Shown here in pieces: positions 1,700 through 6,393 of a DNA stretch of 64,000 nucleotides (the stretch's first letter is position 1; every line of letters starts with the position of its first letter). Below the pieces are notes generated by a model, which searched no databases, had not been told where the DNA came from, and saw only the letters and a list, made by a program, of their open reading frames with translations. Source of the stretch: Candidatus Eisenbacteria bacterium (GTDB lineage Bacteria; Eisenbacteria; RBG-16-71-46; JAFGJU01); contig JAPLKG010000014.1 of NCBI GenBank assembly GCA_026388185.1, positions 62,001-126,000 of the forward strand, read 5' to 3'. Position numbers and translations under genes: made by a program.

Positions 1700-2797
1700 A
1701 TGAAAGTCGTAAAGATAGCCAAAGAGAGGTTGCCGCAGTTCGTTGACGCCATCAAGAAGAAGGGCGAAATCTGGGGGCCGGTAAAGAACGACGAGAAGAA
1801 CATCGAGATGTTCGGCCCCGCAACGAACATGGAGAGTTACAACTACAGAAAGGTAGACGAGTTCTCCGAACTGGTACTGGATGCGACGCGGACAATTATC
1901 CCGCCAAAGATTTTCTTCCACCCGACCAATTTCAACATGTTCAAGTTCGACGAACATGGGTACCGTGAGGACTCTTCCGAAATCTCCCCCAAGATCGTCT
2001 TTGGCTTGCATCCTTGTGACATTCACGGCATCCTTATTCTGGACAAACTTTTTACTCGTGCGTTTCCAGATCCTTACTGGCTTAAGAGAAGGGAAAACAC
2101 GATAATCATCGGGCATTCCTGCGTGCCCGACGACAAGTGCTTCTGTCTCTCGACCCGCACCCACGTGATCGAAGAAGGGTTTGACTTGTACTTCTCTGAC
2201 TTGGGCGATTTCTACCTGATGTGGATCGGCTCGAGCAAGGGAGACGACCTGTTCAGACTCAAACCGGAACTCTTCGAAGAAAAGCTCGACGTGAAGCACA
2301 TACAGAAGTTCATCGACTGGAAAAACTGGCGCGACGGTCAATTCAAACTCGACATTCCGTTCACGGCGCTGGCGGATCTCATGGAGCTCAAGTACAACGA
2401 CAATCTGTGGGAAGAGCTCGCGTTGAGCTGCCTGTCGTGCGGTTCCTGCTCCATGGTCTGTCCGACCTGCAATTGCTACAACGTATCGGATCACTTCTAC
2501 GTTCATAACGACGAGGGTGAAAGAAGAAGGTTCTGGGATTCCTGTATGCTCAGAGAGTATTCACTTGTGGCCGGCGGTCACAACTTCCGCTCCAAGAGAT
2601 CGGACCGACTGAAGCTGTGGTACACGCACAAACTGCAGGCGTTCATATCGGCCTTCGGAAAGTACGCCTGTGTCGGCTGCGGCAGATGCATCCTGACGTG
2701 CCCGGTGAGCATAAACGTTGAGACCGTGGCCCAGGCATTGCGAGGTGAAACCGTTGACGCCTTCTGGAAAAGACTCGCCGTGAAGAAGGAGGGGTAA
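1700..2797 (+). CDS. hydB: Sulfhydrogenase-type [NiFe] hydrogenase, iron-sulfur beta subunit
   Basis: A 365-residue protein of the HydB family, the iron-sulfur electron-transfer subunit of cytoplasmic group 3b bifunctional hydrogenase/sulfur reductases. Two 4Fe-4S cysteine sets are visible: CLSCGSCSMVC at about residues 244-254, followed by the extra pair PTCNC, and CVGCGRCILTC at about 324-334. The N-terminal half carries no known cofactor motif but matches the family layout. It should pass electrons between the flavin subunit (HydG) and the hydrogenase module (HydD-HydA). It is first in the order beta-gamma-delta-alpha, the same order as in the archaeal sulfhydrogenase operons. The start is an ATG with a GAGGAGAGAG ribosome-binding site. 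The TAA stop shares its last base with the next ATG. Confidence 0.88.
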   Translation: MKVVKIAKERLPQFVDAIKKKGEIWGPVKNDEKNIEMFGPATNMESYNYRKVDEFSELVLDATRTIIPPKIFFHPTNFNMFKFDEHGYREDSSEISPKIVFGLHPCDIHGILILDKLFTRAFPDPYWLKRRENTIIIGHSCVPDDKCFCLSTRTHVIEEGFDLYFSDLGDFYLMWIGSSKGDDLFRLKPELFEEKLDVKHIQKFIDWKNWRDGQFKLDIPFTALADLMELKYNDNLWEELALSCLSCGSCSMVCPTCNCYNVSDHFYVHNDEGERRRFWDSCMLREYSLVAGGHNFRSKRSDRLKLWYTHKLQAFISAFGKYACVGCGRCILTCPVSINVETVAQALRGETVDAFWKRLAVKKEG

Positions 2798-3660
2798 TGA
2801 AAAGCATCGAATATGCCAGGCAGACTGAGTGTAACCCATTTTACCCTGAGATGATGCGAATCGTCCGAAGATACAATCTGACGGACGACGTTCGCCTTTT
2901 CCAGGTGAGGCCTCTCGATGCGGAGAGGGCTTTCTCCATAGACTATCGCCCGGGGCAGTTCATGATGGTTTCCGTGGTCGGAGCCGGAGAGGCTCCCTTC
3001 TCGATTTCTTCCTCGCCGTCCCGGCCGGGATTGATTGAATTCTGCATAAGAAAAGTGGGGTCGGTCACGGATGCCCTGTTCAGGCTGAAAGAGAATTCAA
3101 CCATCGGCGTCAGGGGACCTTACGGGAACGGATTCCCGATGGAGAAAATGGTCGGCCACGATTTGATATTCATCGTCGGTGGACTTGGTGCTGCGCCCCT
3201 GCGCTCTCTTCTTCTTTACGCGCTCGACAACAGGGAACTCTTCGGAAAGATTCACTTCCTCCACGGAGCCAAGAAACCCGCGGAGATGCTCTTCCGCGAA
3301 GAGTTCTTCAGCATGTGCGAAAGAGACGACCTTTCGTGTCTCCTCGCCGTCGACGCGGACGACACGGGCAAATGGCCCGCCCGCGTCGGTCTCGTCACTT
3401 GCCTCTTTGATCAGGTGAAGGACGTCAACCCGGAGAACACGTACGCAGTCGTGTGCGGCCCTCCGGTGATGTATAAATTCGTGATTGCGGAGCTTCTCAA
3501 GCTCAATATCCCCAAGCATCAGATTCTGATGACGCTGGAACGTAGAATGAAATGCGGGACTGGAAAATGTGGGCACTGTGCGATCGATTACATGTACGCC
3601 TGTCTCGACGGCCCCGTTTTCTCTTACTGGGACGTTCTCCGCATGAGAGAGCTAATCTAG
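2797..3660 (+). CDS. hydG: Sulfhydrogenase-type hydrogenase, FAD/NAD(P)-binding gamma subunit
   Basis: A 287-residue ferredoxin-NADP reductase-like protein. An FAD-binding beta-barrel motif (RPGQFMMVSV, then APFSISSSP) lies at about residues 50-70. The pyridine-nucleotide motif GGLGAAPLRSL is at about 128-138. A C-terminal [2Fe-2S] cluster has cysteines in CGTGKCGHCAIDYMYAC at about 250-266. This is the domain order of HydG/AsrB-type subunits, which couple NAD(P)H to the hydrogenase. The gene overlaps the hydB stop by one base, so translational coupling is likely. The symbol follows the archaeal sulfhydrogenase naming, not the HydG maturase of [FeFe] hydrogenases. Confidence 0.88.
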   Translation: MKSIEYARQTECNPFYPEMMRIVRRYNLTDDVRLFQVRPLDAERAFSIDYRPGQFMMVSVVGAGEAPFSISSSPSRPGLIEFCIRKVGSVTDALFRLKENSTIGVRGPYGNGFPMEKMVGHDLIFIVGGLGAAPLRSLLLYALDNRELFGKIHFLHGAKKPAEMLFREEFFSMCERDDLSCLLAVDADDTGKWPARVGLVTCLFDQVKDVNPENTYAVVCGPPVMYKFVIAELLKLNIPKHQILMTLERRMKCGTGKCGHCAIDYMYACLDGPVFSYWDVLRMRELI

Positions 3661-3743: not shown

Positions 3744-4523
3744 ATGAGACGAACCGATCTGAAAGTTGGAATCTACGAGTTCACTGGTTGCGCCGGTGAC
3801 GCCCTGGCAATCATTCATTCCGAGGACGAACTAGTTGATTTCTTCACGGTGGTGAACGTCTCGTCTTTCCTCATGGCAAAGCGGGACAACGTGGAGGAGA
3901 AACTGGACGTCGCCTTGATAGAAGGCTCTATTACGACCGAGGAACAGAAAGAGAAACTGATGGAGATAGCCTCGAGAAGCAAGAAAGTCTTCGCCATCGG
4001 TATCTGTGCTTGCTTCGGAGGCATTCAGGCAATGAATATGGGGCTCGGCGGATGGGAAGAGAGGTTCAAGAAAGTGTATGGCAAGGACAAGATTCCCGTC
4101 GGCAAGGCTTTCGAATCTCGACCGATTGATGACTTCGTCAAAGTCGACGGCTACATCCCGGGGTGTCCGATCGATGCAAAACAGTTCTTCCACGCCTTCA
4201 CTCGCATCATAAACGGCAACAATCCGGAGCTCTACGGGTTCCCGGTCTGCATTGAATGCAAGTGGAAGGAAAACCAGTGCCTCTTGGTCAAGAACGTGCT
4301 CTGCCTCGGCCCCCTGACCGCCGCCGGATGCGGCGGAGCGTGTCCCAGCTACAACATCCCTTGCGTCGGATGCTGGGGACCCTACGAGGAGGCCAACCTT
4401 CTTGCCCAGTATCACCTCCTCCTGGAGAAGGGATTCAAGGCCGAGGACATAGAGCGAAGAGTGAGAAACTTCGGCGGCAAGAGAATCGTCGAATATCTGA
4501 AGCAACTTGGAAACGTAAAGTAA
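3744..4523 (+). CDS. hydD: Sulfhydrogenase-type [NiFe] hydrogenase small (delta) subunit
   Basis: A 259-residue small subunit carrying the iron-sulfur relay next to the NiFe site. Ligand motifs seen: TGCAGD near residue 16, GICACFGG with C88/C90, and IPGCP with C141, which are the positions that bind the proximal 4Fe-4S cluster. A cysteine-rich C-terminal region (about residues 165-215, including CIECKW and PCVGCWGPYEEAN) serves the medial and distal clusters. Oddity: the usual CxxC of the first motif reads C16-A-G-D19, so one expected proximal-cluster cysteine is aspartate. An 83-base gap separates it from hydG. The start ATG follows a gggagacc sequence. A 43-bp piece of this gene is repeated, inverted, at 1424-1466. 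Confidence 0.87.
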   Translation: MRRTDLKVGIYEFTGCAGDALAIIHSEDELVDFFTVVNVSSFLMAKRDNVEEKLDVALIEGSITTEEQKEKLMEIASRSKKVFAIGICACFGGIQAMNMGLGGWEERFKKVYGKDKIPVGKAFESRPIDDFVKVDGYIPGCPIDAKQFFHAFTRIINGNNPELYGFPVCIECKWKENQCLLVKNVLCLGPLTAAGCGGACPSYNIPCVGCWGPYEEANLLAQYHLLLEKGFKAEDIERRVRNFGGKRIVEYLKQLGNVK

Positions 4524-4593: not shown

Positions 4594-6393
4594 ATGAAGA
4601 TTGAAATTGAATCGTTGGCCAGGGTAGAAGGACACGGCGGAATCTTGGTCGAGATGGAAGGCAACAAAATCAAGGACGTTTTGTTCAACGTTTTCGAGGG
4701 ACCGCGACTGATAGAGAGCCTGACCGTCGGAAAGACGCCGGCAGAAGACGTGAGTCTGGTTTGTCGGATTTGCGCGATTTGCACGCTCTCTCACCGCTAT
4801 TCCGCCCTCAGAGCCATGGAGAGAGCCCTGGGGATAACCGTTCCTCCCAAGACTCATCTCACTCGAACGTTGATGCATTTTGGTGAGATGATAGAGAGCC
4901 ATTCTCTCCACATTTTTTTTCTCTCGTTGCCGGACCTGGTGAATCGACCCTCGGCGATTGCCCTGCTGGATGATTTCAAGAACGAAGTAGCGCTCGCTCT
5001 CAAGATAAAGAAATTCGGCAACCTGATCATGGCCACAACCGCCGACAGAATGATACACGGCGAGAATCCGATCATCGGTGGCTTCGGCCGCTTTCCTTCC
5101 AAGCAACAACTGACGGAGATAAAGAATCTGGCCGAAGAGCTGCTGCCACAGGCCGTCAAGGCGGCAGATCTCGTCGGCTCGTTCTCCTTGCCCGACTTCT
5201 TCGAGTCAGACACGCTTTACGTTGCCTGTAATCCAGAGGACGGCAAATTTGGATTTGTCGGCGACACGGTTCTTCTCTCGTCGAAGGAAGAATTGAGCAT
5301 AGAAGACTACAAGAAGCTGACGAACGAGAGAGTGGTACCGCACTCCTTCGCCAAGCGTTCGCTTTACAAAGGAAAGCCCTTCTCCGTCGGCTCGCTGGCC
5401 AGAGTGAACCTGCTCGGCGAAAGACTGACCGGCGAGGCAGCGAAATGCTTCAAGAAATACTACGGGCCGAGATGGAAGACGAATCCCCTTTTCAACATAA
5501 TGGCCCAGGCGATCGAGATGGTGTATTGCATTGAAGAAATTCCTGCTCTGATCGACAAGATAATCCCGCTGGCAGATCCCCCTGTCGTTTCCGCCACTCG
5601 CTCAGACGGCGAGGCAACCGGAGCGGTCGAGGCTCCGCGCGGAACCCTCTATCACCATTATCGTATAAAGGACGGCCGGGTAGCCGAGGCCGACATCATA
5701 ACTCCCACGGCTCAAAACCTGGACGACATCGAGCGGTACTTCAGACTGGCAGTCGAGAACCTGCCGTCCGATTTCAACAACGACCCGACTACGATTCTTG
5801 AGACCATCGCCAGGGCCTACGATCCGTGCCTTTCGTGCTCGGCTCATTTGGTAGAAGTGAAGAGGACCGAAAGGCCGAATTGGAAACTCAACTTGTCTTC
5901 GGCATTCGGGGGCGCCGAATCTGAGAAGCCGGCGCGTCCGATTTTCGTGGGACTCGGAAACGTCGATAGGGCAGACGACGGGCTGGGTATCGTTATTGCC
6001 CGACGACTGAAGTCGCTTGGTTGTCAGAGGGCCGTGGCTGAAGACGAATGGCAGAAGTTCCTTTCGCATCTGGCGGAGATTGGCGAAGGTCCCGTCGTAT
6101 TCATCGACGCGGCGGACTTCGGCGCCGAGCCCGGACAAGTGGGGCTGTTTCCTCTGAGTTCAGTCAAGTCGAATCACGTCACGACACACAAGGCCCTATT
6201 CGATTTCTACAGACAGATTCTGGAATGTGATAGTAGCCGCAGGAGAGGCGATAAAGAGGACGGTGGCGCAGCCAATAGCGGTCATTACCTTCTGGCCATT
6301 CAGCCTTCGTCCACGGAATTCTCGTCTGAAATGTCCGCGGTTGTGTCCCGCGCCGTCGAACAGGTGACACAATTCCTGAGCGACTTTGTGTGA
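4594..6393 (+). CDS. hydA: [NiFe] hydrogenase large subunit fused to a HycI/HybD-type maturation endopeptidase
   Basis: A 599-residue fusion. Residues 1 to about 418 are the NiFe large subunit: RVEGHGG near the start, the N-terminal metal motif RICAICTLSH (Ala replaces the Gly of the classical RxCGxC), and the C-terminal motif DPCLSCSAH at 410-418, which together give four NiFe cysteine ligands. Family large subunits normally end with a short peptide that a separate protease cuts off after the His of this motif. Here a linker (419-449) leads into a complete protease-like domain: GLGNVDRADDGLG (D462), FIDAAD (D505) and TTHKALFDF (H532). These match the three conserved nickel-binding positions of HycI/HybD proteases. 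Cis self-processing is an inference. No hyp maturation genes are in the window. Confidence 0.88.
   Translation: MKIEIESLARVEGHGGILVEMEGNKIKDVLFNVFEGPRLIESLTVGKTPAEDVSLVCRICAICTLSHRYSALRAMERALGITVPPKTHLTRTLMHFGEMIESHSLHIFFLSLPDLVNRPSAIALLDDFKNEVALALKIKKFGNLIMATTADRMIHGENPIIGGFGRFPSKQQLTEIKNLAEELLPQAVKAADLVGSFSLPDFFESDTLYVACNPEDGKFGFVGDTVLLSSKEELSIEDYKKLTNERVVPHSFAKRSLYKGKPFSVGSLARVNLLGERLTGEAAKCFKKYYGPRWKTNPLFNIMAQAIEMVYCIEEIPALIDKIIPLADPPVVSATRSDGEATGAVEAPRGTLYHHYRIKDGRVAEADIITPTAQNLDDIERYFRLAVENLPSDFNNDPTTILETIARAYDPCLSCSAHLVEVKRTERPNWKLNLSSAFGGAESEKPARPIFVGLGNVDRADDGLGIVIARRLKSLGCQRAVAEDEWQKFLSHLAEIGEGPVVFIDAADFGAEPGQVGLFPLSSVKSNHVTTHKALFDFYRQILECDSSRRRGDKEDGGAANSGHYLLAIQPSSTEFSSEMSAVVSRAVEQVTQFLSDFV

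Follow-up and report, generated by a model that had tools for sequence, protein, structure and literature searches.

A group-3b-type [NiFe] hydrogenase large subunit fused to a predicted maturation protease

In known systems a maturation protease trims the large subunit of a [NiFe] hydrogenase after nickel insertion, whereupon the final cysteine completes the bridge (PMC12134894). The protease recognises its substrate mainly by regions beyond the removable tail (PMC6769069; PMC5299533). No cut at all is needed in group 4 and sensor hydrogenases (PMC12134894). In T. kodakarensis one free HycI can serve several hydrogenases, according to work cited in PMC7654741. The described proteases T. kodakarensis HycI (PDB entry 5zby), E. 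coli HycI and HybD are free proteins with two aspartates and one histidine as ligands. On the substrate side, Pyrococcus furiosus sulfhydrogenase I alpha and T. kodakarensis HyhL (group 3b) end a few residues past the processing histidine and have no protease domain.

The locus described here departs from this pattern. The window, a 64,000-nucleotide stretch of DNA from a Candidatus Eisenbacteria bacterium, encodes a HycI-family domain with the same three ligands at the C-terminus of its presumed substrate (Table 1). The open reading frame is uninterrupted from ATG to TGA over 599 codons. The sequence-only reading had already taken the large subunit and the protease to be one polypeptide, and this is borne out. 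The frame has no stop between residues 418 and 450, and the coordinates and residue numbers given in that reading (D462, D505 and H532) are correct. No natural fusion of a large subunit with its protease was found in the open-access literature, where engineered tail swaps and tags were found. The architecture may already be listed elsewhere, in subscription papers or domain-architecture databases.

Table 1. Features of the hydrogenase operon, with positions counted from the first letter of the window.
Feature	Position	Strand	Basis
Hydrogenase beta subunit (4Fe-4S, sulfhydrogenase ShyB/HydB type)	1700..2797	+	NF040829 297.5 bits, NF040833 272.9 bits, below equivalog cut-offs; PF17179
Hydrogenase gamma subunit (FAD/NAD-binding)	2797..3660	+	NF006220 311.8 bits, NF040830 253.1 bits, below cut-offs
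Hydrogenase delta (small) subunit	3744..4523	+	NF040831 189.4 bits; PF01058 above cut-off
Fused alpha subunit and maturation protease	4594..6393	+	599 aa and stop; single open frame, both domains matched
Large-subunit catalytic domain, residues 1-418	4594..5847	+	NiFe cysteines 60, 63, 412, 415; DPCLSCSAH 410-418; predicted fold matches P. furiosus sulfhydrogenase I alpha, Z 52.0
Residues 419-449: canonical short tail LVEVKR and linker helix with W430 (5881-5883)	5848..5940	+	Alignments and model
HycI-family protease domain, residues 450-599	5941..6390	+	TIGR00072 59.9 bits; invariant ligands; predicted fold Z 17.1 to HycI 5zby
Metal ligands D462, D505, H532	5977-5979, 6106-6108, 6187-6189	+	Alignment

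The fused alpha gene is the last of four in an operon of the order beta-gamma-delta-alpha, and this four-subunit set is shared with P. furiosus sulfhydrogenase I and T. kodakarensis HyhL, as is the processing motif. The best matches of beta, gamma and delta are sulfhydrogenase-type models (ShyB/HydB, gamma and ShyD/HydD), yet they stay below the equivalog cut-offs. The same holds for alpha, whose residues 2-421 match the sulfhydrogenase alpha model NF040832 at 335.6 bits (cut-off 880), with NF040828 at 312.6 bits (cut-off 700) and PF00374 also matched. Judged by these profiles, alpha is of a type related to the archaeal equivalogs NF040832 and NF040828, but is not one of them. P. furiosus sulfhydrogenase I alpha and HyhL are the best PDB sequence matches of the large-subunit domain, and its predicted fold matches theirs (Z 52.0 and 49.8, respectively). 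C60, C63, C412 and C415, which make up the two CxxC motifs for binding NiFe(CN)2CO, are invariant across 32 aligned sequences. The large subunit is assigned to a group-3b-type (sulfhydrogenase) cytosolic [NiFe] hydrogenase with predicted NAD(P)-linked H2 activity. HypD, which is required for the hydrogenase cofactor, was found in the window's genome.

A separate observation concerns the delta gene. A 43-base stretch within it (4193-4235) recurs as an exact inverted copy at 1424-1466, some 230 bases upstream of the beta gene; by chance no such repeat is expected. No CRISPR-like array was found at the two copies. Possible readings of the repeat are a small templated insertion, an antisense element and an assembly artefact.

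The tail of the fused chain (187 residues) exceeds the cut-off of the hydrogenase maturation protease model TIGR00072 (59.9 bits against 47.45) and falls slightly below that of PF01750 HycI (22.1 bits against 23). Its sole weighty PDB sequence match is HycI 5zby (E 1.8e-6). D462, D505 and H532 occupy the three metal positions and are invariant alongside eleven free and three fused relatives, and D461 likewise never varies among the free and fused relatives aligned. The full-length fold searches had only the large-subunit domain among the matches listed, so the tail was modelled separately. A joint alignment with free proteases, which placed these wrongly at the N-terminus, was left out of the modelling. 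Modelled alone, residues 419-599 gave a mean pLDDT of 84, and the predicted fold matches 5zby (Z 17.1), E. coli HycI (14.3) and HybD (12.7), with peptidyl-tRNA hydrolases at 10.4 and below. A HycI/HybD-like domain with all three metal-binding positions had been proposed from the letters alone, and it held up in the profile search, the alignments and the predicted structure.

How are the two parts joined? Most relatives end 4-12 residues past the processing motif, whereas the fused frame continues with LVEVKR, followed by a short helix and then a domain of 150 residues. The join is near-seamless, with the usual short tail running on into the N-terminal helix of the protease, and the linker between DPCLSCSAH and the protease amounts to 31 residues. 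In the model of the full-length chain the tail is predicted to form a strand (420-425) and a helix (430-437). This model aligns up to residue 425, tail strand included, with immature HyhL from the HyhL-HypA complex, whereas its alignment with mature enzymes stops at model residues 414-415. Separate translation of the protease from an internal start was considered and rejected. None of the in-frame ATG, GTG or TTG codons in the window's junction, upstream of the protease domain, has a Shine-Dalgarno-like site, and their ribosome-binding energies range from -1.7 to -3.3 kcal/mol, against -7.3 to -12.2 kcal/mol for the true operon starts.

The same fusion, uninterrupted, is present in nine Aminicenantes-type genomes. 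A scan of genome contigs brought up three further fused genes (L060, L061 and L063); across 396 genomes of their phylum the total came to nine (with L171-L176), all spanning model position 1 to 577-579. Eight of these were aligned with the window, the ninth (L173) being left out. All eight retain both aspartates, the histidine and the linker W430, and the processing motif and short-tail sequence are intact in them. The Aminicenantes genes resemble that of the window in domain order and in the lack of interruption. However, they are 47-48% identical to it overall, their linker is about 7 residues shorter and their large subunits sit on a different branch. The record of L061 (JARYMI010000001.1) is labelled Clostridiales, yet genome and gene group with Aminicenantes records; it is probably mislabelled.

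A related operon in a KSB1 bacterium may indicate how the fusion arose. Its large subunit is 60% identical to that of the window, a 36% identical protease follows directly and the gene order is shared. However, these are two genes in different frames, the free protease gene starting 2 bases past the large-subunit stop, whereas in the window there is one chain. The window's linker can be read as the usual tail continued by the N-terminal helix of a KSB1-like free protease. The fused protease domains form one clade (support 98/97). The large-subunit tree differs: there the unfused L059 is the partner of the window (100/100) and the Aminicenantes proteins group with the tailless L177 (100/96). 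A single clade of all fused large subunits is rejected (AU p 4.6e-11), owing to the pairing between L059 and the window, whereas a grouping that also takes in L059 and L177 is not (p 0.084). The trees allow either one fusion with two later losses or two fusions. The protease tree leans towards a single fusion, although the branches are long and the protease alignment is short.

L059 (1802-3118) is the window's closest relative, at 69% identity and in the same family. It is unfused, with a 20-residue tail that is longer than usual. A tblastn search found no protease remnant beside its large subunit. The single HycI of this draft genome is located with another hydrogenase. HypD was not found there either, and genes missing from this genome therefore say little.

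Is the fused domain a working protease? HycI domains equal hydrogenase large subunits in number in all ten fused genomes, a count that left out weak PF00374 matches judged to be complex-I-like subunits, and two of them (G224 and G453) yielded no HycI other than the fused domain. Most of these genomes are draft assemblies and the HycI counts could miss genes. Equal numbers do not prove pairing, since one free HycI can serve several hydrogenases. The protease domain is under purifying selection in the one measurable pair, L060-L061, with dN/dS of 0.20 against 0.056 for the large subunit, at a dS already above 1. In a small comparison uncorrected for shared ancestry, the fused proteases have diverged somewhat more than free ones for the same large-subunit identity. 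This fits relaxed recognition, although other causes could apply. Taken together, the nine other fused genomes, the matching counts of HycI domains and large subunits and the lack of an internal ribosome-binding site support a working fused protease.

L177 (1501-2775, in G126) is a large subunit that offers the converse case and thereby favours self-cutting in the fused ones. Its gene encodes nothing beyond the processing histidine (DPCISCSVH, then the stop), so that the subunit is encoded already trimmed and should need no cut. No matching protease was found nearby, and the one HycI of G126 adjoins another hydrogenase.

We consider it fairly likely that the fused HycI makes a nickel-gated cut after H418 and thereby removes itself, either in cis or between two copies. 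The removable C-terminal peptide of a group-3b-type large subunit would thus have been extended into its own HycI protease. Fe(CN)2CO and nickel would first be put in place by the Hyp proteins; the attached protease would then sense the nickel, cut between H418 and L419 and depart as a 181-residue fragment. C415 could then close the NiFe bridge and the subunit pair with delta. Substrate recognition would be provided by the tether, through proximity. Cutting in cis seems more likely than cutting between copies because the linker of 25-31 residues looks long enough and because protease and substrate are made one to one. A strictly self-processing hydrogenase, in which the protease is the leaving peptide and acts once, in cis, gated by the nickel of its own chain, is a more tentative proposition, with a chance slightly short of even. 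In that case one protease would be spent per enzyme made.

What if the fused protease instead acts mainly in trans, on other precursors or also on a second hydrogenase, as an ordinary HycI would once released? Free HycI enzymes do work in trans and one can serve two hydrogenases (PMC7654741), and the released fragment is predicted to be a complete HycI domain. However, the second hydrogenase of the window's genome is already provided with a free HycI, encoded on its contig and belonging to another clade, and release of the fused protease itself requires some first cut. This makes a mainly trans role unlikely. Retention of the domain, with nothing cut and the attached HycI serving as a nickel-sensing chaperone or structural part, is to be weighed against the intact processing motif and short tail, the invariant ligands and the fold of the aligned mature enzymes, which ends at model residues 414-415. 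Such a role, which the sequence-only reading had offered beside cis self-cleavage, is distinctly improbable, although a maturation protease can stay bound to a large subunit, even a tailless one (PMC5299533), and the tail is dispensable in some hydrogenases (PMC7654741; PMC12134894).

Two further explanations would remove the fused protease from consideration. The domain could be inactive, with the genome's free HycI cutting the chain, and such a free HycI does exist in the window's genome and in most of the fused ones; the greater divergence of the fused domains points the same way. However, that free HycI falls in a different clade and its gene shares a contig with another hydrogenase, no free HycI was found in G224 or G453 and the ligands of the fused domain are conserved, so an inactive domain is very improbable. 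Alternatively, two genes could have been joined by an error in sequencing or assembly. The analysis covered one assembly of the source species (2.6 Mb, 20 contigs, about 98% complete), and the nearest relative, L059, is unfused. Against this, the window's linker and protease align with those of the Aminicenantes copies, W430 and all ligands included, and the fused proteases are one clade. An error of this kind is the most improbable explanation of all. On sequence grounds the fusion is a real, conserved arrangement and not an accident of one assembly, because the same design recurs in nine other genomes.

The arrangement bears on substrate recognition and nickel sensing by maturation proteases. 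In this natural single chain, substrate and protease are tied to each other at 1:1. Structural studies of the cutting step would gain a precursor that could be trapped by withholding nickel or altering one ligand. It may also ease the making of group-3b-type hydrogenases in other hosts.
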